Part shown: piece by piece, positions 30,403 through 50,125 of the stretch
How the letters are laid out: every line of letters begins with the position of its first letter
Numbering within the stretch: the stretch's first letter is position 1
NCBI RefSeq assembly: GCF_003818135.1
Contig: NZ_RPOH01000040.1
Location: 1-54,915, forward strand
Direction: 5' to 3'
From: Buttiauxella warmboldiae
GTDB taxonomy: Bacteria; Pseudomonadota; Gammaproteobacteria; Enterobacterales; Enterobacteriaceae
Length of the DNA: 54,915 nt
Made by a program: the position numbers and the translations under genes
Notes under the pieces: model-generated
The model's input: only the letters and a program-made list of their open reading frames with translations
What the model was told of the DNA's origin: nothing
The model's database searches: none

Positions 30403-30424
30403 AAGGTTGTTATTGCTGGTTAAA

Positions 30425-31511: not shown

Positions 31512-31577
31512 AATTAACACCAGAAGTTCGATCATAAATTTTAGACAGTTACGAATTGTCATTCAAAGGAGAGCATC

Positions 31578-32753: not shown

Positions 32754-32785
32754 TAGATAATAGAGTATGCCCTGTGTAGGCCCTT

Positions 32786-32816
32786 GCCCTCTCATAATAT
32801 GAGAGGGCTTTTTTTA
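32786..32816 (+). terminator. Terminator after ogl copy 2
   Basis: GCCCTCTCAT-AAT-ATGAGAGGGC is a perfect 10-bp stem followed by eight T, 33 bases past the stop codon. Confidence 0.92.
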
Positions 32817-32916
32817 TCGGCCTCTCTTCAGAACACCAATCCCGTATTCATATGCTTTACGAAAGAGATAGGTTTGGTTATCAGACTGAGTAAATCATTT
32901 TATTTTACCGCGATAT

Positions 32917-32942
32917 AAAAAAGCCTCCGCTATTGCGGAGGC
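32917..32942 (-). terminator. Terminator after kdgM
   Basis: On the minus strand GCCTCCGC-AATA-GCGGAGGC is followed by six T, 28 bases beyond the kdgM stop. Confidence 0.9.
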
Positions 32943-32969
32943 CTGAGAGGGTATTAACCAATTAAACTA

Positions 32970-34333: not shown

Positions 34334-34693
34334 CTATTCCCAGCTTAACAATGGGCTACAGCCTCCATCACCGACCAAGGCGCGCAACGCGGGTAACTTA
34401 CAGCACTGCTTTAATAATTCAGGCAGGGGATAAATATCGCTCGGTGGCAATAGCACGTTTTCCAGCTCCCCCCATAAATACCAGCCCTGAGCAACATTGC
34501 TTGCCGGAATAAATAAATGCAGGTGTAACCCCTGTTCAGGCTCATCGGGCAACCCTAGCCATTGACTGAATCGCGCAATCCCTTCGGCTTCATATTCCAC
34601 CAGCGAACAACGTTGGATCTGAGTGGCCGGAATATAAAAACGCTGGGGCCCAAGGGTGAGGCGTACCGCCGCAAGGCTAAGCGCGTGTGTCAT
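34334..34693 (-). CDS. Small protein of unknown function at the end of the chemosensory operon
   Basis: 119 residues from the ATG at 34693, which overlaps the cheW stop by 17 bases. I do not recognise a family with certainty. The stretch RLTLGPQRFYIPATQIQRCS recalls the first strands of a CheW domain, and LLPPSDIYPLPELLKQC recalls its later part, so it may be a shortened or divergent CheW-like adaptor. No membrane segment or signal is seen. The tight overlap implies co-translation with CheW. The C-terminus ends at the junction with the thiolase remnant, so it might itself have been reshaped by that rearrangement. Confidence 0.6.
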   Translation of the reverse strand: MTHALSLAAVRLTLGPQRFYIPATQIQRCSLVEYEAEGIARFSQWLGLPDEPEQGLHLHLFIPASNVAQGWYLWGELENVLLPPSDIYPLPELLKQCCKLPALRALVGDGGCSPLLSWE

Positions 34694-35204
34694 CGTAGCC
34701 ACTGCTTTCCAGGTAGCGCTCAAAGACCAGGTCCAGATCCAGCAGGGCAAAATATTCACGACCAACGGGGACAATGCCGGCCACTACTTTTTGCAGGGCG
34801 GCAGATAAATTATCCGCGGCGGGATGAATCTGGCTTTCGGCCACGTCCAGCACATCAATTAATTTATCGATCAAAATGCCGCTTTGCATTTTTTTACCAC
34901 GGCCAATAAGGAGGGTGCGTTTGCCTGGCACAGGCTGTTCCGGGGCTTCAATTATCCGATTAATGGTAATAACCGACTCGACGCGCCCGCGGTGATTGAT
35001 CGCTCCTTCAAGAGATGGCGGACAGCCGGGCACCCAGGAAACAGGGCGTTCCGCCAGGATTTCTTTTATCTGCGAGCCGTAAAAGGCATAGTTTTTATCC
35101 GCAAGCTTAAACAGCACAAGGCTGCGAACCGGTTCGTCGACGTTGGCAATTTCACGGCTTTCGTCTTGATAGTGGCTGAGTATGTGTTCCAGTTGAGAAC
35201 TCAT
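34677..35204 (-). CDS. CheW-like chemosensory coupling protein
   Basis: 175 residues with one CheW domain (about 25-165): LVLFKLADKNYAFYGSQIKE, VSWVPGCPPSLEGAINHRG, LLDLDLVFE. CheW couples chemoreceptors to CheA. A 25-residue N-terminal extension precedes the domain. The start overlaps the cyclase stop as ATGA, indicating coupling. As the only clear CheW in the operon it should link the chemoreceptor and CheA hybrid encoded upstream. Confidence 0.9.
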   Translation of the reverse strand: MSSQLEHILSHYQDESREIANVDEPVRSLVLFKLADKNYAFYGSQIKEILAERPVSWVPGCPPSLEGAINHRGRVESVITINRIIEAPEQPVPGKRTLLIGRGKKMQSGILIDKLIDVLDVAESQIHPAADNLSAALQKVVAGIVPVGREYFALLDLDLVFERYLESSGYDDTRA

Positions 35205-36889
35205 GCGACATCCTTATCTGCGGCCAGGCAATAACGGTTACGCCCCTGCTGCTTTGCTGCATAGAGCGCCTGGTCCGCACGTTCACGTATAGTTTCTATT
35301 TTGTCGCCCGCACGCCAGGAGGCGATCCCCGCACTGAAAGTATTGCTGAAATGGGTCTGGTTAACGGAGAAGGAAATTTTTTCAAACCCCTGACGCAATC
35401 TCTCAACTACCGCCGCCGCCTGATCTTTAGTGGTGTTCGGCATAATGATGGCGAACTCTTCACCGCCATAGCGCCCGACAATATCAGTGCTGCGCAGACG
35501 GTGGGAAAAAAGCTGCGAGATCCCCAAAATGACCTGATCGCCCGCGACATGGCCGTAGGTATCGTTGATATTTTTAAATCGGTCCAAATCGACCATCACC
35601 AGACTAAAGGGAATGCCGCTGTAATTAGATTCCGTGATTGCGCTTTCCAGGTAGTGCGTTGTCGTCGAGTGGTTATACAGGCCCGTCAGGCTATCCTGTG
35701 ACATCCGCGCACGCAGCGTACGCATTCTTTCCGCACGAATCGAAACCGCATTAATCAACTCTTGCGGATCGGCCTGTTTAATAATGAAATCTTCCGCGCC
35801 GGTACTCATCGCCCCAAACTGCGTTTTCTTATTGGTCTCACTTGAGAGATAGGCGATAGGCAAACCGATATGCTGTGGGATCTGGCGGATCAGTTTCGTC
35901 AGCTCTTCACCGCTGTATTCCGGCATGTGGTAGTCCATCAGCACAATATCGATCGGATGGGTATTAAGAACGTTCAGCAAGTGTGGGATCTGTTTTAGAA
36001 CATGTACTTCCATGCCCGCCATGCGCAGCATTTCTGCATTGTATTGCGCAACTTCTGGCTCGTCGTCAATCAGCAGAACCTGGTACGGTTTTTTCAGCGA
36101 CGGCTGGGTTAAGCGGTGCAGCTCCTGAACTAAATCCGTCGTTGAGGCCGGTTTGACATAGTAACCGTCGCACCCGGCTTTAATCGCATTGATGCGGGCG
36201 TGGAAATGGCTGTGGCAGGAAAGATAAAGCACCGGGAATGGCGTGCCGACTTTCTTTTTCAGATCGGACATCGCCAGCGGGCCGCCGTAGGCGTTATCCG
36301 GGAAGCTGACATCCATAATCACTACCGACGGCGGCTGTGACAACACGGCTTTCGTAAAATCAGCCGTGTTGGTAAATACATAACAAATAAAGCCAAAACA
36401 GCGCAGCTGGGTTGCCAGCAGCTCCGCCTGCTCGCGCTCATCATCGCACAGATAAACAGGCTTAATGGTGCGGTTAATGGCTATCTCTTCCTGGCTGGAA
36501 GCGGCTATCGGGAACTTCACTAATGAGTCGCCACCGCGACGCCCGCTTTCCGCCTGCTCTTCAGTCAACGCGTATAGCCGCTTTAGTATTTCGCCAAGCT
36601 GCTGGTAACAGATGTTGGCCACCGAGGGGTCGGCGAACAGGCGTTCGCCTTCCGCAGCCTGGCTGGCAATTTTGGTAAAGCCAAATGAGGCGCTGGTGCC
36701 GTGAATGCTATGCAGCAAAAGATGAAGCTGCTTGCTTGCCACGTTATCCGGCCCGGTGAGTAATTTTTCCAGCAGCCCGTCGGCCTGAGCCAGCATAACG
36801 GGGATCCGTTGCAAAAAACGCTGGCGCAGGCGCGCGATTTTATCCTGCGCAGTGTTCATCGTATTTTGCATAAGTTCTTGTTTCATCAT
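35201..36889 (-). CDS. Response regulator diguanylate cyclase, HPt-REC-REC-GGDEF
   Basis: About 562 residues. Domain order is an HPt-like domain with the phospho-acceptor His in LLLHSIHGTSASFGF; REC1 with CDDE, IMDVSFP and VKP; REC2 with IDDE, LMDYHMP and IIK; then a GGDEF domain with active GGEEF. The inhibitory RxxD site (RSTD) sits five residues before GGEEF. All receiver phosphorylation residues look intact. It should make c-di-GMP when phosphorylated by the CheA hybrid, as WspR does in Pseudomonas, but with an extra HPt and REC. The start is uncertain among 36889, 36886, 36871 and 36859. Its first codons overlap or closely follow the single-REC gene. Confidence 0.9.
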   Translation of the reverse strand: MMKQELMQNTMNTAQDKIARLRQRFLQRIPVMLAQADGLLEKLLTGPDNVASKQLHLLLHSIHGTSASFGFTKIASQAAEGERLFADPSVANICYQQLGEILKRLYALTEEQAESGRRGGDSLVKFPIAASSQEEIAINRTIKPVYLCDDEREQAELLATQLRCFGFICYVFTNTADFTKAVLSQPPSVVIMDVSFPDNAYGGPLAMSDLKKKVGTPFPVLYLSCHSHFHARINAIKAGCDGYYVKPASTTDLVQELHRLTQPSLKKPYQVLLIDDEPEVAQYNAEMLRMAGMEVHVLKQIPHLLNVLNTHPIDIVLMDYHMPEYSGEELTKLIRQIPQHIGLPIAYLSSETNKKTQFGAMSTGAEDFIIKQADPQELINAVSIRAERMRTLRARMSQDSLTGLYNHSTTTHYLESAITESNYSGIPFSLVMVDLDRFKNINDTYGHVAGDQVILGISQLFSHRLRSTDIVGRYGGEEFAIIMPNTTKDQAAAVVERLRQGFEKISFSVNQTHFSNTFSAGIASWRAGDKIETIRERADQALYAAKQQGRNRYCLAADKDVA

Positions 36890-36893
36890 GATG

Positions 36894-37262
36894 TTATAAT
36901 TGCTCAACCGCTGCGCCCGGCTGCAGTATTTCATTCACTACCGCCACCACTCTTTCTGCCATATTTTCATCTTTTTTCACCCAACAATCCGGGATGATAG
37001 TGATATCAGTCATCTCGCTGGCGCTGAGTAAAATAAATGGTTTGTTCCAGCCGTTGGCGCGTAACATCGCTAACAGATCCAGCCCGGTAATTTCGGGCAT
37101 ATGAAAATCGCTGATGACTAAGTCGATATCGCTGTCAGAACCAAGGCTGGCTAATGCGCTTATGGCACTTTCGGCAAGAATCACTTCATAACCGCTCATT
37201 TCCAGAAATACCGAAGCCAGCTCGGCGGCAAACAAATCGTCATCTACTAATAAAACACGCAT
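36894..37262 (-). CDS. Single-domain response regulator (CheY-like)
   Basis: 122 residues, one receiver domain: acidic pair in VLLVDDD, phospho-acceptor Asp in VISDFHMPEITG, Ser in ILLSAS and Lys in WVKKD, where most receivers have KP. It has no output domain. In this operon it may shuttle phosphate, act as a phosphate sink for the CheA hybrid or regulate by protein contact. ATG at 37262 is preferred; a GTG 12 bases upstream is possible. It lies 24 bases after the CheA gene. Confidence 0.88.
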   Translation of the reverse strand: MRVLLVDDDLFAAELASVFLEMSGYEVILAESAISALASLGSDSDIDLVISDFHMPEITGLDLLAMLRANGWNKPFILLSASEMTDITIIPDCWVKKDENMAERVVAVVNEILQPGAAVEQL

Positions 37263-37286
37263 ATTTTTTCTCACTTATTAAGCCCT

Positions 37287-39431
37287 TCAGCATAAAAGCA
37301 TTTTTAATGTTTCTATCAGGCTATCCTGTTCGAAATCACCCTTGGCTATATAAGCATCCGCGCCCACCTGAATTCCCCGGCGGCGATCTTCTTCTTTAGC
37401 CCGTGAAGTCACGATAATAATTGGAGTATGTTGATAATTTTCTTCGGCACGCAGCGCTTTGGTGAGCGAGAATCCATCCATCACCGGCATCTCTACATCC
37501 GTCAGTACCGCATCAAACTGCGTCAGACGCGCTTTTTGTAGCCCCGACAGCCCGTCTTCGGCGAGCGTGACCTGATAGCCGTGTGCTTCCAGCACATTTT
37601 TTTCAATTTCACGCGTATTCAATGAGTCATCAACGACCAGCACATGCCAGGCGTTGCGTCGTGTTTCCGGCTCAGGCGCCGCAGTCCGCGTCTGCTTCTG
37701 TTTTTGAGCCATTTCCATCAGAACCGGAACCTGCAAAACGCTCACCAGCTGGTTATCCTGGCTCAGTACCATGCCGGAGACTAACGAGTGCTGCTGCATA
37801 TGTTTGGGCAGGGGTTTAATCATCATGTTGCGCTCATCCAGCAGGCTATCCGCCAGCATCGCCATCTTGCCAAACTGGTTCTGAATGATGATAAGTAACA
37901 AAGAGTTGCCCGCCGGAGCCGAGAGCGGCTGGCTCCCCGGCCGCTCCTGAATGCGCAGCAATTCAGCCGCTGAAATAACCGGAATAAATTCGTTGTGCAG
38001 AATAATGGCCGGGCGGCCCGCAATGTCGCGAATCTCATTGCGAGAATAGTTAACCACTTCAACAACGTATTGCGCCGCAAGGCCAAACAGATGGCCCTGC
38101 AGTTCAAACTGCAAAATGCGCATCATCGCCAGAGAGATGGGTAAACGAATAATAAAGCTGGTCCCCATGCCTGGCCGGCTGTGCACCTGCAATGTGCCCT
38201 GCAGATCGGTGACAATGGTCTTGCGAACGATATCCAGCCCCACGCCGCGACCGGAGAGCTCGGTAACAATCTTGCTGGTTGAAAAACCAGGATGGAAAAT
38301 CAGCTCGTTGCACTCCTGCTCTGAAAGCTGCTCAACCACCTCAGCATCAACTAAGCCGCGTGCCACCGCTTTGGCGCGGATCGCCGAATAATTTAAGCCA
38401 CGCCCATCATCTTCCACACGCAACAAGATACCGCGCCCGTCCTGCTGCGTCGTCAGGGTGATAGCACCACGCGCCGATTTTCCTAGCGCCAGGCGTTCCG
38501 CCGCTTCGCCGATGCCGTGGTCGATAGCATTGCGCAACAGGTGGGTTAACGGCTCAGAAAGCCTGTCGATTAACTGCCTGTCGATCTCCACTTCCCCCCC
38601 CAGAATGCGGCAATCTACCTGCTTGTTCAGGGATGCCGCAAGCTCACGCACCTGCGTCGAAACGGGTTCAAACAGCATTGACATCGGGAGCATACGAATG
38701 GTGGTGGCAACGTCATACAGTTCATACATCTGCAGATGCTGAACCTGAAAATCTTCTTTTAGCCTGTGGCTGAACTGCAGCACCTGCTGGCGCAGCTGTT
38801 CCGCATCCATTTGCGCCAGATGCGGCCCCAGCTTAACCAGGCTATGCACCTGCTGTTCAAGGCGATCGTGGCTGGCCACCACTTCCCCGAGAATATTAAT
38901 CAGATCGTCCAGCTTTTCGAGTTTTACCCGTACTGAACCCGCTTGTTTTAACCCACCGTCCAGCGCATCCAGCGTTGGGAGGGTAAGAGTTTTTTCTACC
39001 GCTGGCGTGGGGGCCACTACCCTATCGCTGGCCATTTCTCCGCGACTGGCGCGCGCCAGCTGTTCACACAGCGCCCCATCTGCCGGAGGCAGCTGATTAT
39101 TACCATCGCTCGCGGCCAGCCGATCGAGCAGGTTAGCGATATAATCGCAAGCCTGAAGGATCAGGGCGCCAAGGTTCTGGTCAGGCTCAAGCTTCCTGTC
39201 ACGCAGCTCGCTTAAAATTTCTTCCAGCTGGTGGGTGACATCAGCGATGCTCGGTAATTTCAGCATGCGAGCCCCCCCTTTCAGGGTATGCGCCGCGCGG
39301 AACATCTCGCCGATTTGCGCCTCGCTGTTTTGCCCCGCGATGAGCAAAAATGCCCCTTCTTTCACGGTCTGCAAATGACCATTTGCTTCATCGATAAAGC
39401 GCAGCACGAATTTTTTAAGATCGATAGCCAT
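37287..39431 (-). CDS. Hybrid chemosensory histidine kinase (CheA-REC, WspE-like)
   Basis: 714 residues. P1 HPt domain with phospho-His48 in AAHTLKGGARML; dimerisation and kinase domain with HLLRNAIDHGIG (about 297-308), DDGRG and GRGVGLDIVR; a CheW-like P5 domain (about 430-570); then a C-terminal receiver (about 596-714) with Asp645 in LTDVEMPVMDG. The P2 CheY-docking domain is replaced by a short linker. The REC fusion is the WspE layout, in which the attached REC can act as a phosphate sink or intermediate. It is expected to phosphorylate the single REC and the cyclase encoded downstream. Confidence 0.93.
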   Translation of the reverse strand: MAIDLKKFVLRFIDEANGHLQTVKEGAFLLIAGQNSEAQIGEMFRAAHTLKGGARMLKLPSIADVTHQLEEILSELRDRKLEPDQNLGALILQACDYIANLLDRLAASDGNNQLPPADGALCEQLARASRGEMASDRVVAPTPAVEKTLTLPTLDALDGGLKQAGSVRVKLEKLDDLINILGEVVASHDRLEQQVHSLVKLGPHLAQMDAEQLRQQVLQFSHRLKEDFQVQHLQMYELYDVATTIRMLPMSMLFEPVSTQVRELAASLNKQVDCRILGGEVEIDRQLIDRLSEPLTHLLRNAIDHGIGEAAERLALGKSARGAITLTTQQDGRGILLRVEDDGRGLNYSAIRAKAVARGLVDAEVVEQLSEQECNELIFHPGFSTSKIVTELSGRGVGLDIVRKTIVTDLQGTLQVHSRPGMGTSFIIRLPISLAMMRILQFELQGHLFGLAAQYVVEVVNYSRNEIRDIAGRPAIILHNEFIPVISAAELLRIQERPGSQPLSAPAGNSLLLIIIQNQFGKMAMLADSLLDERNMMIKPLPKHMQQHSLVSGMVLSQDNQLVSVLQVPVLMEMAQKQKQTRTAAPEPETRRNAWHVLVVDDSLNTREIEKNVLEAHGYQVTLAEDGLSGLQKARLTQFDAVLTDVEMPVMDGFSLTKALRAEENYQHTPIIIVTSRAKEEDRRRGIQVGADAYIAKGDFEQDSLIETLKMLLC

Positions 39432-39439
39432 AGGATTAT

Positions 39440-40864
39440 CTATTGTCCATCCTGAGTAGGAAGCTGCGCCAGCTGATGTTCACAAAGAAAACGAAACGAA
39501 TGGCTGAGAAATGAGAGCGGCAGCCGCAGCGTGCAGGCGTTATCGGCCCGACTCATTTCAGCGTTGAGTAATTGCAGCGTGATACGATAAGTCCGCTGTG
39601 CCGGGCGGTATAACTCACTTTGTCGATACATTTCAGCCAGATAGTAATGAGCTGGCCAGTAGCCCGGCTGCTGATAAACAACCTGCTTAAACCAGGCGAT
39701 CGCCTGCTGGGTATGCTGCTGCCACATCATCGCCAGCCCGAGCAGCATTTTCGCCTCGGCAGACCATTCATCCAGCGCCAGCACCTGTTTGGCGCTGACG
39801 GCCGTTTGCTCGAACTCGCATTTTTCCAGCGCAATAGCGCCTTTGATAACCAGCGCTTGCTGATGATGAATATCGGTATTTAACACCATCTCGATCAGCG
39901 TTTCCGCCTCGGCGAAGCGTTTGTCCGCCACACAGGCGAGCGCCTTTTTAATCCAGCTATCGCACTGCTGCGCGGAAGGAACCTTAGCGGCAATAAACGG
40001 GGCTTCAACTGGGATCACCGGGGTGATTAGGCGTGGTTTGACTTCTGTGGCCGGAATCTGAGCGCGCGATGTTTTCGGCTGGCAGAAGTAAAAATTGCCG
40101 AACTCCTGTTTAAGCCGCAGGATGCCAAAGTTATTAGCCAGGGTTTCGGCGTTACCAAAGAACAGTGCGCCTTCGGGTTGCAGCATGGTCAGCAGATTAA
40201 AATGCAGCGTGCGGCGCGTTTCAACATCGAAGTAAATGGAGACGTTACGCAGCAAAATAATATCGAATTTGGGCAGCAGCTGCTCTTTGACAATATTGGC
40301 ACGCTGGAACGCCACCTTAGTGCGAATCACATCGTGTAGCTGATACTGGTTGCCATTGCGCGTGAAATAGGTTTGCTGCAACAGAGGATCGACGCCGCGG
40401 AAGGAGTAGCTGGAATAATTTGCGCTCCTGGCTTTTTCCAGGATCTTACTATCGATGTCACAGCCGTGAATCTCAACGTTGTCGGCAAATTTATGCTGGA
40501 ATTTCTGATGGAGCTTTATCGCCAGCGAATAGGCTTCTTCGCCCGATGAACAGCCCGCGCTTAAAATACGCACCGGCCCGCTGCGTTGTTCAAGCATGCG
40601 CGGCACCAGCTTGTCACAGACGATATCCAGCACGTCCGGCTCGCGAAAAAAGTAGGTTTCGTTGATCGTCAGCAGGCTAAGAAGCTTGTCAAACTCGGTC
40701 GTCGAGACGCTAAGTTTTTCATAGTATTCCGCAAAGCTCTCTTTTCCCCGTTCGGAGATACGCTGGTGCAGCGCGGCATTAAGCAAGCCTTCCATACCCT
40801 TAAAAAAATGCAGGCCCACACGATCCTTGATCAGAGTTTTAAATGCCGCAATATTTGGGATCAT
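39440..40864 (-). CDS. CheR-type chemoreceptor methyltransferase with C-terminal TPR region
   Basis: 474 residues. CheR N-terminal and SAM-binding domains occupy about 1-275: NETYFFREP, the SAM loop SAGCSSGEEAYSLA, HGCDID and LLRNVSIYFD. The C-terminal 190 residues are helical with TPR-like repeats (for example LLGLAMMWQQHTQQAIAWFK), as in Pseudomonas WspC. It should methylate glutamates of the neighbouring chemoreceptor. It overlaps cheB by 4 bases and lies 8 bases before the CheA gene. Confidence 0.92.
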   Translation of the reverse strand: MIPNIAAFKTLIKDRVGLHFFKGMEGLLNAALHQRISERGKESFAEYYEKLSVSTTEFDKLLSLLTINETYFFREPDVLDIVCDKLVPRMLEQRSGPVRILSAGCSSGEEAYSLAIKLHQKFQHKFADNVEIHGCDIDSKILEKARSANYSSYSFRGVDPLLQQTYFTRNGNQYQLHDVIRTKVAFQRANIVKEQLLPKFDIILLRNVSIYFDVETRRTLHFNLLTMLQPEGALFFGNAETLANNFGILRLKQEFGNFYFCQPKTSRAQIPATEVKPRLITPVIPVEAPFIAAKVPSAQQCDSWIKKALACVADKRFAEAETLIEMVLNTDIHHQQALVIKGAIALEKCEFEQTAVSAKQVLALDEWSAEAKMLLGLAMMWQQHTQQAIAWFKQVVYQQPGYWPAHYYLAEMYRQSELYRPAQRTYRITLQLLNAEMSRADNACTLRLPLSFLSHSFRFLCEHQLAQLPTQDGQ

Positions 40865-41931
40865 GGCAGTTGGCCCTCAGGATGCCCAAAATCAGCCATC
40901 GTGACTAAAGCACCAGCCAGCTTTTCCAGCGGCAGAATTTTATGGATAACCTTTTTATCAATGGCGAGTTTATTCATGCCGAATACGACGGAGGTCTGCT
41001 CATCCTGGGCCAGCGTTTTACCGCCATGATGATAGATCGCCTCAATGCCCCGGCACCCGTCGCTGCCCATACCGGTCATGATCAGCCCTACCGCTCTTGC
41101 GCCATAAACTTCAGCCACCGACTCCAGCAGCATATTGCAGCTTGGGTGGTAGACATCGCTCACCTGACGGGGGATCGCGGCTAAGCGATGGTACTGTTTG
41201 ACCACCAGATGGTGTTCAGGAGGCAGGATATAAACGTGCCCGGCGCACAGCACATCATTCTGCTGAGCGAGCTGCACCTGAAGCCCCGTGACGCTATCCA
41301 GCCACTGCACCATACTTTTGGCAAAACCGTCGGCAATATGCTGCGCGATAAGTATCGGGCAGGGAAAGTTTACCGGCAGGGCCTGCAATAACTTACTGAG
41401 CGCCTGTGGCCCACCGGTTGAACAGGCAATCGCCAATACATAGGGCCACTCACAGGGATACGCGGAAGCAAGCTCAGAAGGCGGGGGAAGATTTTTTGAC
41501 GCCGCCTCCGAATGGTGGCGCAACCCCTGGATATGGCGAATCACTTTCACCCCGGCCAGCATTTCGACCTGCCGATGCAGGGCTTTAGTCGCCAGTGCTG
41601 ACTCCCCCTGGTTGTTGACGACCGCCAGAGCACCGCAGGTAATGAACTCCGCGTCCCACTGTGCATCTGGGTAGTAGCGCATCACCATAATAGGGATCGC
41701 GCAGGTCGCCATAATCGTTGCAACGGTTTCGACGTTTTCCGACCCCGGTGACTCCAGCGTCAGTACCAGCAGCTGTGGCACCATCTTTTGCACCAGGCTT
41801 GCCGCCTGTTCACGATGCACCGCCTGGCCTACAACCTCAATATGGTTATTAATCTCAAGCTGCCTGATCAGATCGTTGCGCGAGATGCTGCAATGATCGA
41901 CGATCAGCACCCGGATTTTAGGCCTGGTCAT
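40861..41931 (-). CDS. CheB-type methylesterase with a degenerate receiver domain
   Basis: 356 residues. The C-terminal esterase domain has its triad intact: Ser171 (ACSTGG), His198 (AQHIADGF) and Asp291 (MTGMGSDG). The N-terminal receiver has lost its phosphorylation chemistry. The acidic pair is Asp12-His13, the phospho-acceptor Asp is replaced by Thr58 in LVLTLESPG, the Thr/Ser switch residue by Arg85 and the conserved Lys by Asn. It should therefore demethylate or deamidate the chemoreceptor without activation by CheA phosphate. It overlaps the chemoreceptor gene by 14 bases. Confidence 0.93.
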   Translation of the reverse strand: MTRPKIRVLIVDHCSISRNDLIRQLEINNHIEVVGQAVHREQAASLVQKMVPQLLVLTLESPGSENVETVATIMATCAIPIMVMRYYPDAQWDAEFITCGALAVVNNQGESALATKALHRQVEMLAGVKVIRHIQGLRHHSEAASKNLPPPSELASAYPCEWPYVLAIACSTGGPQALSKLLQALPVNFPCPILIAQHIADGFAKSMVQWLDSVTGLQVQLAQQNDVLCAGHVYILPPEHHLVVKQYHRLAAIPRQVSDVYHPSCNMLLESVAEVYGARAVGLIMTGMGSDGCRGIEAIYHHGGKTLAQDEQTSVVFGMNKLAIDKKVIHKILPLEKLAGALVTMADFGHPEGQLP

Positions 41932-44020
41932 CAGCTTTATCCGACAATTTGAACGACTGCGTGGCCTGGTTTAACTCTTCAGACAGCTGAGTCATATCCT
42001 GGCTGATGGACAAAATGTCTTTAATGGATTGCGAGGTGTAATTGCTGGCGACCACAATTTCGCGCAGCGCCATAACAACCTGATTACTTGCTGTTTTTTG
42101 CTGCTGCGTCGACAAGGAGATCTGCATGGCCGCGGTAGAAGTTTGTTCAGCGGTTGCCACAATATCGTGTAAGCGATCGGCGCTGACTTTACAGGCTTGC
42201 GTCCCTGCTTTAATGCTGTTGCTGCCTTTTTCGGCATTCAGCACCAGGCGATTTATCGAGTTCTGGATCTCGCTGATTTTGTTCTCAATCTCAAAGGTAG
42301 ATTCAGTCACGGAGTCGGCCAGGCGGCGAATTTCTGCTGCCACCACCGAGAAACGTTTGCCGGACTCTCCGGCGCTTGAGGCCTCCAGCGCCGCATTGAA
42401 GGCGATGAGTTTAGTCTGATCCGCAACGTTATTAATGATTACCATCACGCGACTAATCTCTTTCGACTTGTTACCCAGCATCATGATTTCACGCATGCTT
42501 TGCTGGTTGTCGCTGTCAATATCGGCCATGCGCGTGAGCAGCTCGCCCATTGAGTCAGAGCCTTTGTTACAGTCATCAAGCGTCACATTGGCAATATCGA
42601 CTACCGCGCGTGAATGTTCGGCAATCTGCGTGGAAGAGGCCGACAGCTCTTCCATCGTTGAGGTAATTTCCGCAACCGATGAAGAGGTTTCCACGCTGGT
42701 AGAAGCCTGTCCGTCTACCGCTTCAGTAATGTTTAACGCTGCTTTATGAACGTGCTGGGCGTGGGCTACCACGCCGCCGACCAGAGCGTGCAGGGCGGCA
42801 CGCATTTTCTCATTGGCGCTCAGTAACTCGCCGATTTCATCATGGTGATCGACGTGAATATCAACCGTGAGATCGCCCTGGGCAATCGACTGAGAAATTT
42901 TCAGGACGTTTTTCAGACGGCGTGAAATCAGGATACGGCTGGTTGCGGCAATCAGCAGTAAGATAACCGGCATCAGCAGCAGGCTGAAAAGCAGCAGGCT
43001 ATTGCGTACCAGGGTGCTGCTGCGCTCAACATCATCAACATAGCTGGTGGTAGCGATTATCCAGTCTATCCCATCAATATATTCAAATACCGCAACGCGT
43101 TTACGTGCGGCAGCGCCATATCCACTGACGGTTTCGTAATACACCGTGCCATTTTTACGCGCCAGAATATCGGAGAAACGCTTGTAGCCATGGGCATCAA
43201 TCACATTGCCAACAAGCTGATTAACCAGCGTTGGGTGAGCCACCATCATGCCCGGATTAAATCCGGCATCCAGCACGTAAGCGTAGCCACCATCACCAAT
43301 ATGCACCGCTAATAGCTCTTTGATGACCGGCTGCAGCGCAAGTTTGACATCAAAACCAATCGCTACCGCCCCCACAACCTGGCCATTTTTATCGGCGATG
43401 GGCTCGTAGTGGCCAATGAATTGCCTGCCGTATAACACCACCACGCCGGAAAAAGGCTTATTTTTAACCAGCAAATCCAGCGCGGGGTTGTCATGGCTTA
43501 GCACGGTCGAGGTGGCAATACTTCCTTCTTTGCCCGGCACGGAAGTGGAAACACGCACAAACTGATCGCCTTCACGCACAAAGGTAGAAGCGACTACGTT
43601 GGTTATTTCGGTGAAATGAGCATTGATGCTCGTATCCGTTAATAACGCTTTCAGCGCGCTGGCATCCAGCGAATGCAGCGGTTGTGAGGACTTATTCTGA
43701 TAATTATTGATATAAACGTTGCTGTAACGTTCAGCGTCCCTCATCACCCGCTTGTACTCGGTGGTGATATTGTTATGGAAAATGCGGGTATTAGAACGCA
43801 GAACTTCCAACGCATTGCTTTGCAGCTGCGTCGCTAAGTAGGAGGAGAGCAGGAAAGAAGCACTTACCAGCAGTACGCCAATACATGAAATCAGCATCAG
43901 GCCCAGTTTCATGGCGACGCCGATATGCAAATTATGCAGCCAGCCCGTCAGAAAATTTTCCGTACTTTTTAATGACTCAACGCCTTCTGTCGGTCGCTGC
44001 ATTTTTAAGAAATTATGCAT
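41918..44020 (-). CDS. Methyl-accepting chemotaxis protein with periplasmic Cache sensor (WspA-like)
   Basis: 700 residues. A cytoplasmic N-terminus of about 36 residues, TM1 (about 38-60), a large periplasmic Cache-type sensor (about 65-340) with VVLYGRQFIGHYEPIADKNG and AIGFDVK, TM2 (about 345-365), HAMP and a coiled-coil signalling domain. The hairpin tip reads IADQTKLIAFNAALEASSAG rather than the flagellar-type LLALNAAVEAARAG. No NWETF-like CheR/CheB tether is at the C-terminus. It is probably the input of the operon. The ligand is unknown. An alternative ATG lies at 44002. Confidence 0.93.
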   Translation of the reverse strand: MHNFLKMQRPTEGVESLKSTENFLTGWLHNLHIGVAMKLGLMLISCIGVLLVSASFLLSSYLATQLQSNALEVLRSNTRIFHNNITTEYKRVMRDAERYSNVYINNYQNKSSQPLHSLDASALKALLTDTSINAHFTEITNVVASTFVREGDQFVRVSTSVPGKEGSIATSTVLSHDNPALDLLVKNKPFSGVVVLYGRQFIGHYEPIADKNGQVVGAVAIGFDVKLALQPVIKELLAVHIGDGGYAYVLDAGFNPGMMVAHPTLVNQLVGNVIDAHGYKRFSDILARKNGTVYYETVSGYGAAARKRVAVFEYIDGIDWIIATTSYVDDVERSSTLVRNSLLLFSLLLMPVILLLIAATSRILISRRLKNVLKISQSIAQGDLTVDIHVDHHDEIGELLSANEKMRAALHALVGGVVAHAQHVHKAALNITEAVDGQASTSVETSSSVAEITSTMEELSASSTQIAEHSRAVVDIANVTLDDCNKGSDSMGELLTRMADIDSDNQQSMREIMMLGNKSKEISRVMVIINNVADQTKLIAFNAALEASSAGESGKRFSVVAAEIRRLADSVTESTFEIENKISEIQNSINRLVLNAEKGSNSIKAGTQACKVSADRLHDIVATAEQTSTAAMQISLSTQQQKTASNQVVMALREIVVASNYTSQSIKDILSISQDMTQLSEELNQATQSFKLSDKADDQA

Positions 44021-44079
44021 AGGATTCCAGTTATCTAACTAAGGTGAACTTAATACTGAATTACCGTTTCACAGCAAAT

Positions 44080-46272
44080 TCAAACTAAAGTAAGTAACGG
44101 CACAGGCTTACCAATGTGATAACCCTGCAGCCACTCCACGTTCATGCTTTCCAGGCAGCGCTGAATTTTTTCATTTTCAACATACTCAGCCACCACCTGC
44201 ATATTCTTCATTTTCGCCACATGGCAAAACGACTCAACGATGTAGTGGCTGAGTTCGTTTTCAGTAATTTCACGGATAAAGGAGCCGTCTATTTTCAGGA
44301 TATCTGCGCTGACGTCTCTTAGCCGGGCATGGCTGGAAAATCCGGTGCCAAAATCATCAATTGCCACCCGGCATCCAAGGCTTTTGAGCGAGATCACCGT
44401 ACGTTGCGACTGCTCGGTATCGGACAGCGCATCCGCCTCAGTGATTTCAAAGATGATGCGTTGCGGATCGACGCCAAACTGCGTCAGCAGCAGCTGAACG
44501 TCATGCACAAAGCTGGTACGACAAACGGTGACCGGCGCCAGGTTAATAGAAAAACAGCGCTCGGGATGCAGCTGCATATTTTTCAAGGTGTTCTTGATAA
44601 CCCAAAGATCAATATCCGGCGCCAGTCCCGCTTCGGTCGCCACCGGCAGGAAGCGGTCAGGTGAAATAAAGCGCCCTTCTTCATCAAGCATACGCAGCAG
44701 TATCTCGTGATAGCGCTCCTCGCCACGGGTACTGACAATCGGCTGCGCCATTAAGACGAAGGCATCGTTATCCAGCGTTTTCTGCAACACCGTGCGGATG
44801 TCGGTACGCCCAACAATGTGGCTTTCAATCGCCCGGCTGGACTGCGCTTCCAGATTCTCAGGTTTACCATTCACCAGCGACAGCCCGGAGACGATACCGA
44901 GCTTGCCGATCAGACGGTAAACGTCGTTACAGAACGGCGTTGCCCGGCAATAGCCGAGGCCGCTACGAAAGCCAAGCTGCTGATTATTGTGTAAATAGCG
45001 AAAGGTATTGGCCGATTTGTAGAGGATACTCAGTCTGCCCCAGTTTGGCTGCTCAAGCCTTAGCAACAGACCGAAGCCTGCGTGGTAGTAGACCTTTTCA
45101 TCGGCGTTGAGTTTTTCACGCAGATACGCTGCCAGTTTTTTCTGGTATCTGGCACGAAAGTGCAGGCCATAACGCCGGGAGAACAGCTCCATTTCAGGAA
45201 CCTGGATCAGGCAGACGATCGAATCCGGAGAGGTTTTGATATCGGCCTGTAATGCCCGCAGGTTGGGCATATTGGTCATGGGATCGGTCAGCCCCATATG
45301 GAGCAGCTGCTCGAAACGTAACGCATTAAAGCGGGCCAGAACCCCCATAATGACAATCGTCAGGGTAAAGATAAAAATAGCGGTTGAAACCACCACCTGA
45401 TGCAGCATGAAGTCATCATTTTGCGCGATGAAGTTAGCGTTGTTCTTCGCCAGCATGATCATCATCACAGTCCAGACCGGAGTGGTGAATACATAGCCAA
45501 TGCGAACCGAACTCCACAGCATGAGCGGGAAGATCAGTATCAGGCTATAGAATGTGAATATCACCCCGCCCTGGAAAGGGATGTTCAGACAGCTCATCAA
45601 AGCAATCAGCGTCGCTGCCCATAAGGTAAATTGTAACAGGCTGACATTCTGTGAAAACTGGACTTTCATCGCCCTCAGGCAAGTCAGCCAATACTTCGGG
45701 CGGCAAATAATTCTTAATAAGGTATAAAACAGAGGAATACCAGTGACGCAGCCATTCATCATCCCCTGGATCCTGACCAGGGTTTCTGCGGTGAACAATT
45801 GTTTAAAGGCCACGATGAAACCGGCGTTACTGGTGGTAAGCAGATACACCGCTTCATTCATCAGCGTATTGAGCACAGCATTACAAATGCATAGCCAGAT
45901 AATTCTTTGGAGGGTTAGTTTTATCCGCCCAAAGCTTGCAGCGCTCCGCCAGCCGGTACTTTTGGTGTACAAAAAATAGCTAATACATGCCGCGGCCATG
46001 TAGCAAAGCAGATCATAAAAGTCCCCTTCAGGGCGCAACAAAAGCGTCAGAGCCGCAAGGAGAAACAGGCCAGAAACGGCCCGGTAGCCAAACAAAACCA
46101 GCACGGCTGTAATAGCGGCCAGTTCCAGGTCATAGATCACCAACGGCTGGCCATTAACCATAAGATGGCTGCTGAGCAACGTCGCCAGAGCGTAAAGCAG
46201 GCAGGGTAACAGCAGCGGAAAAACCCACTGTTTATTGGTAAACGTTGTGCTATCGCTCGCTATAGAGTTCAA
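44080..46272 (-). CDS. Membrane-bound EAL phosphodiesterase, YfgF (PdeF)-like
   Basis: 730 residues. The N-terminal half (about 15-315) is a multi-helix MASE1-like membrane sensor. A degenerate GGDEF domain follows (the signature is AGFGLLLR), then an EAL domain with EILLRM, Asn in SINLAP, FEITEA, IDDFGTGFSS, LKIDGSF, AEYVENE and QGYHIGKP. All catalytic residues are present, so it should degrade c-di-GMP. The stretch YHEILLRM and general layout match E. coli YfgF. The only usable start appears to be TTG at 46272, as an in-frame stop lies close upstream. It is 59 bases before the chemoreceptor gene, so probably the first gene of that operon. Confidence 0.88.
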   Translation of the reverse strand: MNSIASDSTTFTNKQWVFPLLLPCLLYALATLLSSHLMVNGQPLVIYDLELAAITAVLVLFGYRAVSGLFLLAALTLLLRPEGDFYDLLCYMAAACISYFLYTKSTGWRSAASFGRIKLTLQRIIWLCICNAVLNTLMNEAVYLLTTSNAGFIVAFKQLFTAETLVRIQGMMNGCVTGIPLFYTLLRIICRPKYWLTCLRAMKVQFSQNVSLLQFTLWAATLIALMSCLNIPFQGGVIFTFYSLILIFPLMLWSSVRIGYVFTTPVWTVMMIMLAKNNANFIAQNDDFMLHQVVVSTAIFIFTLTIVIMGVLARFNALRFEQLLHMGLTDPMTNMPNLRALQADIKTSPDSIVCLIQVPEMELFSRRYGLHFRARYQKKLAAYLREKLNADEKVYYHAGFGLLLRLEQPNWGRLSILYKSANTFRYLHNNQQLGFRSGLGYCRATPFCNDVYRLIGKLGIVSGLSLVNGKPENLEAQSSRAIESHIVGRTDIRTVLQKTLDNDAFVLMAQPIVSTRGEERYHEILLRMLDEEGRFISPDRFLPVATEAGLAPDIDLWVIKNTLKNMQLHPERCFSINLAPVTVCRTSFVHDVQLLLTQFGVDPQRIIFEITEADALSDTEQSQRTVISLKSLGCRVAIDDFGTGFSSHARLRDVSADILKIDGSFIREITENELSHYIVESFCHVAKMKNMQVVAEYVENEKIQRCLESMNVEWLQGYHIGKPVPLLTLV

Positions 46273-46800
46273 GAATTTAACCCGTGTTTATGCTTTCGTG
46301 TGTTATTCATGTGATTGGCGAATGTATGGTTTAATGGGAGTAAATCTTGTAGAAGATATAATGAAATAAAACAAGCATCGCAATTATTTAACATTTACCT
46401 GGATATAAAAATTAACGTACCTGTTTTAATCTCAAGCAATAACACAAACAAGAAATTAACAAACACGATTCATTATTTTTATAAAGTTGACGGGTTACGA
46501 ATGAAAGAAATCATAGGAACGCTGAAAACATTGGTAATTGTATTCATGTTTTGTGAAAAAAAGAACTACCACTTATAGGTATAAATGGACACCGAACAAT
46601 ATCATAACATATGAGAAAAACCACAAAATCAAGATAAAAATCATAAAAAACAATAAATTAAAGACCATTCCAATTATGAAAAATAGATTTTTATGTGGTT
46701 TAAAAGACATTGCCAGACGGCTTGCTCGGTCTTTATTTAAGTGGAGTTTTACCACACGTCAATCAATACATTAATTAGTGCTGAAGATGCATTTTTATCA
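46273..46800. other. AT-rich divergent control region
   Basis: About 530 bases between the two c-di-GMP operons, very AT-rich (notably 46360-46700) compared with the GC-richer genes beside it. Open frames of 87 and 78 codons occur on the plus strand but lack family resemblance, good ribosome sites or normal codon use; I treat them as chance. This composition often binds H-NS. Confidence 0.6.
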
Positions 46801-46829
46801 TTGACTTGACCAGCCGTGTTATCTATAGT
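46801..46829 (+). promoter_or_regulatory. Predicted sigma-70 promoter of the lapG-lapD operon
   Basis: -35 TTGACT (46801-46806) and -10 TATAGT (46824-46829) with an ideal 17-base spacer. The transcript would have a leader of roughly 190 bases before the GTG at 47025. I saw no c-di-GMP riboswitch core in that leader. Confidence 0.7.
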
Positions 46830-47024
46830 CCCGGCGCATCATTTTTGCCTTTATTTATCTTCTCAGCAACGATGTTACATAATGGTTTATGTTTGTTGAG
46901 ACAAAGCCCGACACTCTTCATAAAAACTCACATAACAGCAACAGTCAGACCAGATATAACAACACGCCGATCAAAAAATTTTTAATTCATGAATTATTCG
47001 CACTTATCAGGAAACTAACCATCT

Positions 47025-49220
47025 GTGGCTAAAAGTTTTTTTTCGCTTAAACGCGTAAAAGGTTGGCATCATTCTATCGCGGGGAAAATAACCCAGTTTT
47101 TGCTGGCGGGTATTCTTGTTGCGTTTGGTGCAGGCGCTTGTACCGGTTGGAGCCTGATTGACAGCTTCTCCTACCAGCAATGGGTACATCAGGCACAGGC
47201 GAACGCTCAGATTATGACTTATATCGTGCGCAACGTTTATACCAATGTCGCGGTAGGAACGAGCGCCACGGGGCAGATTACCCGCATTGTCTCAGAGCAT
47301 AAACTCGGTGACCCGGACTCCATTATTCAAACCGGCTATAACCCGGTGGATGTGCTGGCGCTGGCATCGGTACAGACCCGTAATCCCACCTGGCTTTTCC
47401 TTTATACGCCGGAAAAAGGTTTCCAGGGCATCAGCAATAGCTCTGAAGTACCGGAAGCCAAAATTATCTTTAAAGGGCAAAAAGCCACCGCCGTTTTGGT
47501 GAACTATTACATCGGTTTTGCCACTATCAATGGCAGAGAGTGCTTTATTAGCGCCGTCCCTATTCTCTCCTCATCAGGGGAAATCCTTGGCAGTCTGATC
47601 AGTAGCATCGGTTATAAAAGCCAGCTGTACGCGGCTTATGATGCGATGCTGAAGAAAACCCTTATCATTCTGGCCCTGATTTTACTGGTAACGCTTGCGC
47701 TGGTGACTATCTTTATGCGTCGCCTGTTCCGCCCGGTGCCCGTGCTGATTAGCTCTTTGACGCGTATTGCGCACGAACAAACCGATCGCATTACCCCTTT
47801 CCTGGACCAGGATGACGAAATCGGTAAACTTGCTGCCGCCATAGAAAAACTAAGAGTCGCCATGGTGGAGCGCGATTACCTGCAACGCATGCAGGATATG
47901 TCGCAAAAAATGGAGTACATGGCCCACCATGACTCACTGACGGGCTTCCCGAATCGCGCCTCCTTTAGCCAGGCTCTGGATAAATGCATCCGCGAAGCGA
48001 ATCAGAACGGGCAGTTTTTCAACCTGCTGCTGATCGATCTTGATAACTTCAAACCGGTCAACGATACTTTCGGCCACTCAGCCGGAGATGAAGTCCTTAT
48101 CGGCGTGGCGCAGCGTCTCGCTTTGCTGTTAGGGCCAACGGATTTTGCCGCGCGTTTAGGCGGGGATGAATTCGCGATTCTGCAAAGCGTCAAGGCAGAC
48201 AACTACCAGGAAGCGAGCGCGCTGTCGCAGAAAGTTGTGCGGGCGTTAAGCATTCCCTTTACCTACGGCAGCAACTCTTTTGCCATCAGCTGTAGCGTCG
48301 GTATTGTCACCGCTCCTTCACAGGGTAATAGCGCAACCACCTTAATGATTAACGCCGACCTGGCATTGTATGCTTCAAAACACAGCGGACGTAGCTGCTA
48401 TCACTTCTTTGAAGATGGCATGATGATGAAGCACACCAACAGCGTGTTTGTGAATCAGGAAATTATTAACAGTATTGATAACAATGAGTTTGTGCTGCAC
48501 TACCAGCCGATTATCGATCTGGAAAACGAGACGGTTTGTGGCTACGAGTCGTTGATTCGCTGGAATCACCCAACGAAGGGGCTGATTTATCCGGACTACT
48601 TTATTAATATTGCCGAAGAGTCAGGTCTGATTATCCGCCTGGGTGAATGGATTATTCGTCAGTCCTGTATGGCTGCCGCTAAGTGGCCGGAATCAATAAA
48701 AGTTGCGGTTAATGTTTCAGCTTATCAGCTGCATAGCCCGGGGCTGATCGATATCATTGTTGATGCGCTGAAACAAAGTGGCCTTGCAGCCAATCGTCTG
48801 GAAATAGAAGTTACCGAATCTGAAAAATTAGATCAGTCCATCGCCTTACCGGTGTTCAATAGCCTTCGTGCAATGGGCATTTCCATTGCGATGGATGACC
48901 TCGGAACGGGATATGCGGCGCTGGATTATTTGCTTATTTATCCGTTCACGCGCATTAAAATTGCCCGCACGCTGATTATGAAACTGGAACAAGAGAACGC
49001 CAGCCAGTATCTGGTTGTGATGCTGATTCAGTTTGCCCAGAAATATGGTATGAGCGTCACCGCTGAAGGGGTCGAAACCGAACAACAGCGCACTATTTTA
49101 CGCCATATTTCCTGCCAGAACGTACAGGGCTACTATTACAGCCGGCCGCTGCCAGAAAAAGACCTGCAGCCGACCTTTGGAAATAAGATGATCGATGGGG
49201 AAGTGTGCCATGTCGGATAA
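47025..49220 (+). CDS. Membrane GGDEF-EAL c-di-GMP turnover protein
   Basis: 731 residues from a GTG start. TM1 (about 23-45), a periplasmic sensor of some 160 residues, TM2 (about 208-232), HAMP, GGDEF and EAL. GGDEF is intact (RLGGDEFAIL), but the Arg of the inhibitory RxxD site is missing (GPTD). EAL motifs are ESLIRW, NVSA, EVTES, MDDLGTGYAAL, IKIARTL, AEGVET and QGYYYS: the metal and catalytic positions remain although KID reads KIA. Either activity is possible. It is followed by two periplasmic binding-protein genes, a context like Vibrio MbaA with NspS. Confidence 0.88.
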   Translation: MAKSFFSLKRVKGWHHSIAGKITQFLLAGILVAFGAGACTGWSLIDSFSYQQWVHQAQANAQIMTYIVRNVYTNVAVGTSATGQITRIVSEHKLGDPDSIIQTGYNPVDVLALASVQTRNPTWLFLYTPEKGFQGISNSSEVPEAKIIFKGQKATAVLVNYYIGFATINGRECFISAVPILSSSGEILGSLISSIGYKSQLYAAYDAMLKKTLIILALILLVTLALVTIFMRRLFRPVPVLISSLTRIAHEQTDRITPFLDQDDEIGKLAAAIEKLRVAMVERDYLQRMQDMSQKMEYMAHHDSLTGFPNRASFSQALDKCIREANQNGQFFNLLLIDLDNFKPVNDTFGHSAGDEVLIGVAQRLALLLGPTDFAARLGGDEFAILQSVKADNYQEASALSQKVVRALSIPFTYGSNSFAISCSVGIVTAPSQGNSATTLMINADLALYASKHSGRSCYHFFEDGMMMKHTNSVFVNQEIINSIDNNEFVLHYQPIIDLENETVCGYESLIRWNHPTKGLIYPDYFINIAEESGLIIRLGEWIIRQSCMAAAKWPESIKVAVNVSAYQLHSPGLIDIIVDALKQSGLAANRLEIEVTESEKLDQSIALPVFNSLRAMGISIAMDDLGTGYAALDYLLIYPFTRIKIARTLIMKLEQENASQYLVVMLIQFAQKYGMSVTAEGVETEQQRTILRHISCQNVQGYYYSRPLPEKDLQPTFGNKMIDGEVCHVG

Positions 49221-50124
49221 GTCGTGGTTTCATGGTGCCCTGCATGGCACCATTGCATTATTGCTGCTGATAAGCTCACGGAGTCAGGCGCACAACAGCT
49301 ATAACCAGCCAGTTCTTGAGAGGATAGCCGAAACTAAAACTATAAACCTCGGCTATCAGGATGATGCGTTCCCCTTCTCCTATATTGAGTCCCAGCGTCC
49401 TGTGGGTTATTCCATCGATATTTGTAATAAAATAGTTGATGCCCTGAAAGTTAAGCTGAACATAAAAGATCTCAAAATACGCTGGATCAAAAGCAGCACC
49501 GCCTCGCAGTTTGTTTTAATCAAAAATCATGTAACGGATATGATGTGTATCCCGGCATTTTATTCAGAATTACGCCACCAGCAGGCAGAATTCACCCTCC
49601 CTTTTTTCTATTCCAGCACCCGCTTTATCACACGTAAAAATAACCATACCGATACTATCGAAGATTTAGCCGGACATAGCGTGTTGGTCAAAAGCGGCAC
49701 CATTTATGTCGACCAGCTGCACCAGCTCAATAAAATGAACGAGCTCAACCTCAATATCGAGCTCGATAACAGCAACAACCAGGCCTTTCAGAGTGTGGAA
49801 TCAGGGGAGCTACCCGCTTTGATTTCCAGTTACGTGTTGCTTAAAGGGATGATGATGCTGTCGCCACATTCTGAGATGCTCGAAATATCGGACGAAGTAT
49901 TTAGCCCACCGACGCCTGCGGGGCTACTGCTGCCATTAAATGACCAGCAATTTAAAAATTTTGTCGACCAGGCAATGAAATCCATTCTTACCAGTAAAGA
50001 CTTTACGAAGCTTTATCAACGCTGGTTTATGTCGCCGATTGCGCCAAAAGCGATAAATCTCAATATCCCTATGTCGACGGCGCTAAAATCCTTAATTTCA
50101 TCAACATCAAACAACGCCAACTGA
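49210..50124 (+). CDS. Periplasmic solute-binding protein (family 3), copy 1
   Basis: 304 residues. Signal peptide of about 30 residues (GTIALLLLISSRSQAHN), then a bilobed SBP_bac_3 domain starting INLGYQDDAFPFSYIESQRP and VGYSIDICNKIVDAL, as in amino-acid binding proteins. No ABC permease or ATPase is nearby, so transport is unlikely. The ATG at 49210 overlaps the GGDEF-EAL stop by 11 bases and has GGGGAAG upstream, implying tight co-expression. I infer that it senses a ligand for the GGDEF-EAL protein, LapD or the chemoreceptor. Confidence 0.85.
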   Translation: MSDKSWFHGALHGTIALLLLISSRSQAHNSYNQPVLERIAETKTINLGYQDDAFPFSYIESQRPVGYSIDICNKIVDALKVKLNIKDLKIRWIKSSTASQFVLIKNHVTDMMCIPAFYSELRHQQAEFTLPFFYSSTRFITRKNNHTDTIEDLAGHSVLVKSGTIYVDQLHQLNKMNELNLNIELDNSNNQAFQSVESGELPALISSYVLLKGMMMLSPHSEMLEISDEVFSPPTPAGLLLPLNDQQFKNFVDQAMKSILTSKDFTKLYQRWFMSPIAPKAINLNIPMSTALKSLISSTSNNAN

Positions 50125-50125
50125 A

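Follow-up and report, generated by a model that had tools for sequence, protein, structure and literature searches.

A cluster 2-type chemosensory operon with a diguanylate cyclase lies beside a Lap adhesion module in Buttiauxella warmboldiae

A chemosensory operon of the Halomonas cluster 2 type

We analyzed a 54,915-nucleotide stretch of Buttiauxella warmboldiae DNA (contig NZ_RPOH01000040.1, RefSeq assembly GCF_003818135.1; hereafter the window), which carries on its minus strand, from 46272 to 34334, a nine-gene operon linking a chemotaxis-type kinase to a diguanylate cyclase, next to genes for LapD and LapG. The operon securely belongs to the type of chemosensory cluster 2, described in Halomonas titanicae KHS3 by Gasperotti et al. 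in 2018 (PMC5907407). The core operon type has therefore been known since 2018; the enterobacterial copies depart from it in several respects, foremost a CheB pseudo-receiver and a fixed link to the Lap genes. We favor, with some reserve, the reading that this array, of the alternative cellular function kind, controls surface adhesion through the cyclase, LapD and LapG. An earlier sequence-only reading of the window had called this an undescribed system, a description that does not hold, since equal gene order and domains are published for Halomonas and clusters of this kind in Enterobacteriales are already reported in the text of that paper (PMC5907407).

The open reading frame (ORF) list and Pfam bear out all nine ORFs with their predicted domains (Table 1), as the sequence-only reading had given them, on one strand and mostly overlapping, in the order EAL phosphodiesterase, chemoreceptor (methyl-accepting chemotaxis protein, MCP), CheB, CheR, CheA-REC, single REC, cyclase, CheW and a shortened CheW-fold protein. 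Between neighboring genes there is an overlap or a spacing of no more than 12 bp; only the gap behind the EAL gene is wider, at 59 bp. From the receptor onward, the order MCP-CheB-CheR-CheA-REC-cyclase-CheW-CheW3 agrees with that of Halomonas cluster 2, described as a chemoreceptor, CheB2, CheR2-TPR, CheA2-REC, CheY2, an Hpt-REC-REC-GGDEF cyclase, CheW2 and a small aberrant CheW3 (PMC5907407). The traits of the type are present: an Hpt-REC-REC-GGDEF cyclase with all phosphosites, a CheA with C-terminal REC that is placed in the CheA2 group, a CheR with TPR, a 40H receptor and a small aberrant CheW3. The last of these, for which we find no Pfam family and whose profile has no sequence match among solved structures, is placed by fold comparison only; by its structural model it is a shortened CheW, so the single CheW of the sequence-only reading becomes a predicted pair. 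Its gene probably starts at 34693. The cyclase gene probably starts near 36889 instead of 36934, as 13 of 14 enterobacterial relatives' cyclases begin at residue 16 or 17 of the window's protein. Each arm of the receptor hairpin is 14 residues longer than in two receptors of flagellar type that the same genome encodes, and the receptor has no C-terminal pentapeptide; its class follows the 36H/40H rule given in PMC5907407. Given the longer arms and the missing pentapeptide, the receptor is expected to form an array of its own.

A CheA tree places the kinase with the same type. In this tree of 32 rows, rooted at midpoint (12 Buttiauxella, 3 Citrobacter, 4 Halomonas-type, 6 other cluster-2, 4 WspE and 3 flagellar-labelled rows, the Halomonas-type rows being one Halomonas record and three genomes of one genus), all 25 cluster-2 rows form one group with a support of 99/100, and WspE and flagellar-type CheA fall outside it. 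Two points tell against this separation, namely that L141, L176 and the flagellar row L233 are long branches, and that the tree program warned of possible attraction between L141 and the Wsp rows. The window's CheA shares 84-88% identity with others of its genus, 73-74% with three Citrobacter proteins and 43-48% with those of ten distant clusters (L107, L140, L141, L176, L177, L178, L180, L181, L182 and L185, with the incomplete L179 excluded); identity is 28-29% to four WspE proteins and likewise 28-29% to two flagellar-type CheA proteins of its own genome. The genes for MCP, CheR, CheA, REC and cyclase stand in the operon's order in all ten distant clusters, of which L141 yields no match for CheB and L182 none for CheW. 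The sequence-only reading had proposed CheA and cyclase searches and a tree, and had named a CheA clustering with flagellar CheA as the result that would speak against it; these were run with WspE and flagellar-type CheA, and the operon's CheA groups elsewhere.

We consider it very improbable that the operon is a true Wsp system, that is, a WspABCDEFR orthologue rearranged in an enterobacterium. The two have in common a CheA-REC, a CheR-TPR, a receiver-controlled GGDEF protein and two CheW-like proteins, and both Wsp and cluster 2 are given a 40H receptor in PMC5907407. The operon's CheA is, however, no closer to WspE than to flagellar-type CheA and groups apart from it in the tree. Gene order also differs from the MCP-W-R-W-A-B-cyclase of five Pseudomonas loci that we take to be Wsp from their gene order (complete in L228, and fitting L229-L232 minus one or two CheW calls), the sensor of the single Wsp receptor scanned is 4HB, and the Wsp cyclases read have 333-340 residues. 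Because the operon departs from Wsp in gene order, CheA group, cyclase architecture and receptor sensor, Wsp orthology was rejected; the order wspABCDEFR, a CheA in the WspE group and a WspR-type REC-GGDEF cyclase are all absent. The match to Wsp drawn in the sequence-only reading thus stands for the working logic, which by sequence is Wsp-like (receptor, CheA-REC, receiver-controlled cyclase), and falls for membership (CheA group, order, sensor).

An accessory flagellar chemotaxis cluster is a yet poorer explanation, to which we give hardly any credence. While the operon does hold an MCP, CheA, CheW, CheR, CheB and a CheY-like receiver, its CheA lies outside the flagellar-type group, its receptor hairpin is longer, and flagellar-type che genes are present elsewhere in the host genome. 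As the sequence-only reading had stated, no CheZ, flagellar or motor family is found by Pfam among the 46 window ORFs scanned, and there is no CheY-CheZ pair, the only CheY-like protein being the operon's own single receiver. Flagellar origin was therefore rejected, given the CheA group and the lack of flagellar neighbors. Control by sigma-28 was dropped as well, because the sole sigma-28-like match in the window, at 27444, is at chance level and outside the operon; the divergent intergenic region (46273..47024) holds no such site. Promoter-like sites and terminators between 33600 and 47100 are no commoner than in shuffled sequence. The assembly carries che genes on contig C13 and a second CheA-CheW pair on contig C21 (L235), which suggests that the host has two flagellar-type systems.

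Distribution and conservation

All nine genes recur in the 11 other species genomes of Buttiauxella, and CheA scores at least 1285 bits (84-100%) in all 12 of the genus, counting the genome of the window, while the best CheA score among 48 other relatives is 235 bits. Within the genus Citrobacter, cheA is present in 10 of 17 genomes; three of these were read over all nine genes, and the remaining seven from EAL into the beginning of the cyclase gene. Recurrence across the genus and in Citrobacter shows that the operon is no chance assembly. The cyclase and CheA types are widely scattered in the class and phylum samples (44/369 and 29/398 genomes, own genus included). Among 5,426 Escherichia coli genomes there was no match, either by megablast with the operon or by blastn with the 2.5-kb REC-to-cheA stretch. 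Plasmid carriage was rejected, as tblastn with the cyclase against a plasmid collection gave no close relative among the matches listed, the best being 41% in a 1.8-Mb Halomonas record.

The nine genes are all under purifying selection, with a mean ratio of nonsynonymous to synonymous substitution rates (dN/dS) of 0.05-0.15 per gene across the 12 Buttiauxella genomes (dS around or above 1). The G+C content, 51.9% in the operon against 51.6% in the window, does not point to recent import. The phosphosites of CheA, of the single receiver and of the cyclase (the Hpt and both receivers) are conserved in 15/15 enterobacterial copies, as are the GGEEF site and I-site of the cyclase. The phosphosite of the CheA receiver is conserved too; in an alignment of these copies, CheR conserves R74, E109, D136 and Y211.

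Enterobacterial alterations

The enterobacterial copies have an additional leading gene. A MASE1-EAL gene heads the operon in 12/12 Buttiauxella and 10/10 Citrobacter copies, and its catalytic residues (E523, N577, E609, D639, D640, K660, E696 and Q716) are conserved in all 15 copies aligned; its product has no GGDEF match in Pfam. No such gene was seen in the ten distant clusters.

The second alteration concerns CheB, whose receiver has Thr or Ala in place of the phosphosite Asp in 15/15 aligned enterobacterial copies. In the same copies the second acidic residue is replaced by His or Leu, the Ser/Thr by Arg and the Lys by Asn or His. Seven further Citrobacter CheB proteins, read by eye, have Thr at the phosphosite, bringing the loss to 22/22. 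The Asp is kept in the nine distant clusters having CheB and in 4/4 WspF proteins, although in the CheB alignment the latter lack the Lys and have Asn for the first acidic residue. The methylesterase triad S171, H198 and D291 is conserved. Mean dN/dS within Buttiauxella is 0.10 for the receiver and 0.06 for the methylesterase (rough values, dS being >1), and the low value for the receiver marks it, by sequence, as a pseudo-receiver that is retained instead of decaying. A further change affects the cyclase Hpt, which keeps its His and in which K78 is replaced by His in 15/15 enterobacterial copies; that position is Lys in 9/9 distant cyclases with the domain read.

The receptor sensor also differs between hosts. 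In four Halomonas-type receptors the match is to dCache_1, at scores under the curated cut-off; from the other distant clusters four match dCache_3, L141 has no known sensor and L185 was left out. The distal module of the window's Cache_3-Cache_2 sensor matches PDB 8py0 (1.5e-9). PacF, a receptor of the same family, binds formate at its distal module, where R142, T145 and T158 affect binding, according to the text of PMC12501870, and the spacing of these residues is matched by R156, T159 and T172. Both R156 and T172 are invariant in 12/12 receptors, with Thr or Ser at the middle position. A control weakened the case for formate, in that 9 of 10 Cache_3 modules drawn for comparison also carry the Arg/Thr motif, which therefore does not single out formate. 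The predicted structure of the sensor has a mean predicted local distance difference test (pLDDT) score of 33, too poor for use or fold search. Formate is thus a first guess from sequence, a candidate ligand and no finding.

Linkage to the Lap module

The genes for LapD and LapG, which the sequence-only reading had placed next door, score above their NCBIfam equivalog cut-offs, and the link is firmer than that reading could have seen. The lapD gene lies near the operon, divergently, in 12/12 Buttiauxella and 10/10 operon-bearing Citrobacter genomes, and lapG in 12/12 Buttiauxella and 9/9 Citrobacter genomes read; G427, where the position of lapD alone was seen (12 kb from cheA on the same contig), was left out of the lapG count. 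LapD has degenerate motifs, with RGGEF for GGDEF and KVL for EAL. Past lapD, a convergent giant adhesin gene is found in 11/12 Buttiauxella and 6/10 Citrobacter genomes (G803 and G427 undecided). The adhesin piece in the window is its last 254 residues and matches the C-terminus of ORFs of 2818-4661 residues in relatives. A TolC-LssB-HlyD exporter comes next wherever the sequence reached that far, in six Buttiauxella (one partly read) and four Citrobacter genomes (two partly read).

Another contig of the same assembly, C80, carries an adhesin N-terminus with a LapA retention module and TAAG at residue 103, as in 4/4 N-termini read, followed by an exporter whose proteins score above the cut-offs of TIGR03375, TIGR01843 and TIGR01844. 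We infer from the arrangement in relatives that C80 adjoins the window's contig. The traits of a Lap system are present (LapD and LapG equivalogs, a retention-module adhesin with LapG site and an LssB-type exporter), with the adhesin C-terminus in the window and the rest of the adhesin and exporter taken from C80 and relatives. The adhesion output that the sequence-only reading thought probable agrees with this linkage, seen in 22 genomes.

Several side observations concern the same genes. Loci L280, L286 and L291 keep LapD, LapG and the exporter but have no adhesin gene in the interval from lapD to the exporter. The small orf53 past lapD occurs in relatives, although not in every one (none was seen in L291), and the best NCBIfam resemblance of the SBP_bac_3 pair is to a glutamate/aspartate-binding protein, far below cut-off. 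The assembly has a second retention module on contig C44, and on C80, past the adhesin exporter (L236, 8796-12441), an MHYT-GGDEF protein with a second MASE1-EAL (36% to the window's), a pair that recurs in L241, L245 and L249. In genome G427 LapG, LapD and orf53 occur together once more, on a different contig (L173, 4449-9253), at 52-59% identity to the window's and next to an ORF with a match to the adhesin N-terminus.

Among the literature matches listed in open PMC, no title connects Lap genes of Citrobacter or Buttiauxella with a chemosensory cyclase operon, none reports a CheB pseudo-receiver, and none follows up Halomonas cluster 2, on whose receptor and purines later work reportedly exists. 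By word search, the main text of PMC5907407 does not contain 'Citrobacter', 'LapD', 'adhesin', 'phosphodiesterase' or 'EAL'.

Table 1. Features of the operon and of the adjoining Lap side, in window positions
Feature	Positions	Strand	Evidence
MASE1, degenerate GGDEF-like stretch and EAL phosphodiesterase, first gene	44080..46272	-	Pfam MASE1 9e-11, EAL 7e-63
Chemoreceptor: Cache_3-Cache_2 sensor, HAMP, MCPsignal, long 40H-type hairpin	41918..44020	-	Pfam; hairpin length
CheB: REC and CheB_methylest; T58 at phosphosite, intact triad	40861..41931	-	Pfam; residue alignment
CheR methyltransferase with C-terminal TPR	39440..40864	-	Pfam CheR 3e-47, TPR
CheA-REC hybrid kinase: Hpt, H-kinase_dim, HATPase, CheW and REC; H48, receiver D645	37287..39431	-	Pfam, residues, tree
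Single-domain receiver, D56	36894..37274	-	Pfam REC 1e-14; residues
Diguanylate cyclase Hpt-REC-REC-GGDEF; H75, D208, D334, GGEEF, RxxD I-site	35201..36934	-	Pfam; residues
CheW	34677..35204	-	Pfam CheW 2e-20
Predicted shortened CheW-fold protein, counterpart of Halomonas 'CheW3'	34334..34693	-	Structural model, fold comparison
Divergent intergenic region, operon to Lap-side genes	46273..47024	.	Sequence
Membrane GGDEF-EAL protein, conserved divergent neighbor of operon	47025..49220	+	Pfam; conservation
Two periplasmic solute-binding proteins, SBP_bac_3	49195..50986	+	Pfam
LapG periplasmic cysteine protease	51004..51714	+	NCBIfam NF045674, 366 bits, cut-off 320
LapD c-di-GMP receptor	51724..53664	+	NCBIfam NF045673, 1057 bits, cut-off 1020
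orf53, small conserved ORF past lapD	53736..54086	-	Present in relatives
LapA-type giant adhesin, C-terminal end, cut at contig end	54145..54909	-	NF012196 Ig_like_ice 4e-23

Proposed mechanism and alternatives

The periplasmic Cache_3-Cache_2 module of the 40H receptor would bind a small metabolite, with formate or another short carboxylate as first guess, and the receptor, CheW and the shortened CheW would together set the activity of CheA-REC. Phosphate from H48 of CheA could pass to the single REC and to the REC of CheA, serving as sink or brake, and to the two receivers of the cyclase, with the cyclase Hpt as a possible relay. Phosphorylation would switch on the GGEEF cyclase in the manner of PleD, the I-site would limit its output, and the operon's EAL protein would break down the cyclic diguanylate (c-di-GMP). 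Receptor methylation would be set by CheR-TPR and CheB, the latter presumably beyond activation by CheA phosphate. The nearby LapD would read c-di-GMP and hold LapG, leaving the LapA-type adhesin anchored, and when c-di-GMP drops LapG would clip the adhesin at TAAG and release the cell. The action of LapD and LapG is established in Pseudomonas fluorescens. We infer that this cyclase feeds this LapD, and likewise the ligand, the phosphotransfer route and the sign of the response; we are guessing at the sign, at the single receiver as sink and at what the EAL protein does in the pathway. The step from CheA to the cyclase was left open in the discussion of PMC5907407.

Some observations speak against control of adhesion through LapD. 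The 22 EAL matches in the host genome, some of them short pieces, mean that c-di-GMP may act elsewhere than at LapD. The lapD linkage in Citrobacter was counted in operon-bearing genomes only (10 of 17), the adhesin is absent in G005 (Buttiauxella) and in G802 and G807 (Citrobacter), and in G009 several inserted genes lie between adhesin and lapD.

A different possibility, which we regard as unlikely but the best of the rivals, is that the pathway lowers c-di-GMP, so that the operon is a dispersal sensor in which ligand shuts off CheA, EAL drains the pool and LapG frees the cells. This idea fits the common behavior of E. coli-type receptors, which inhibit CheA when an attractant binds, and also the EAL residues conserved in 15/15 copies and the position of the EAL gene, first in all 22 enterobacterial copies. 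The domain content nevertheless makes the cyclase the phosphorylation target, and the EAL protein has its own MASE1 and no receiver, so nothing couples its activity to CheA.

Somewhat less likely still, the operon may feed a global c-di-GMP pool (cellulose, curli, motility brake), with Lap proximity as a historical accident of a shared island. There is no LapD/LapG match among the ORF hits of the ten non-enterobacterial clusters, which places Lap outside the core, and the neighboring adhesin is missing in the three enterobacterial genomes just named. Against an accident, however, the Lap linkage is held in 22/22 genomes of two genera despite near-saturated synonymous sites within Buttiauxella.

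The favored reading, adhesion controlled through the cyclase and LapD/LapG, has a bolder form that we put forward as doubtful, between these two rivals in likelihood: a self-contained 'sense-to-stick' island in which a metabolite-gated receptor, perhaps for formate, would act on one giant adhesin, and in which kinase-to-CheB feedback would be cut and replaced by phosphodiesterase and I-site feedback. Nearly all chemosensory arrays known from enterobacteria, to our knowledge, serve swimming. If adhesion control is true, enterobacteria would have an adhesion-dedicated array whose input, messenger enzymes and effector are encoded next to each other. Such a locus would be a compact system for asking which cyclase addresses which c-di-GMP receptor, and would naturally test how chemosensory adaptation proceeds when CheB is not phosphorylated.

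Other features of the window

An OmrA-B family small RNA lies at 13869-13956 on the minus strand (84 bits, gathering threshold 40). The stretch 24918-33653, with two oligogalacturonate lyase genes, a KdgM porin and ABC transporter genes, is probably a locus for pectin-oligomer use beside the operon; KdgM adjoins the operon in 11/11 other Buttiauxella stretches too.

Comparison with known systems

With Halomonas cluster 2 the operon shares gene order, domains, a 40H-type receptor and the CheA group. The enterobacterial copies differ from it in the extra leading MASE1-EAL gene, the non-phosphorylatable CheB receiver, the Hpt K78 to His replacement, a Cache_3-Cache_2 sensor where Halomonas-type receptors match dCache_1, and the adjoining LapD/LapG, mostly also with adhesin and exporter. 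Wsp is alike in placing a receiver-linked diguanylate cyclase under chemosensory control and in having two CheW-like proteins, whereas its CheA group and gene order are others, its cyclase is shorter and without Hpt and second REC, its sensor (one receptor) is 4HB, and Asp is kept at the WspF phosphosite (4/4). Formate receptors PacF and McpF belong to the same Cache_3-Cache_2 family, and PacF has the same Arg/Thr/Thr spacing, a motif that most of the sampled Cache_3 modules carry; work on McpF treated it as a motility receptor, and reportedly so did work on PacF. PleD of Caulobacter, a comparison drawn in PMC5907407, likewise has tandem receivers ahead of GGDEF and an I-site, while the cyclase here has an added Hpt, phosphosites in both receivers and a chemotaxis-type CheA as its presumed kinase. 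The Lap system of Pseudomonas fluorescens has the same LapD, LapG, retention-module adhesin with TAAG and LssB-type exporter; the module described here differs from it in being linked to a complete chemosensory cyclase operon.

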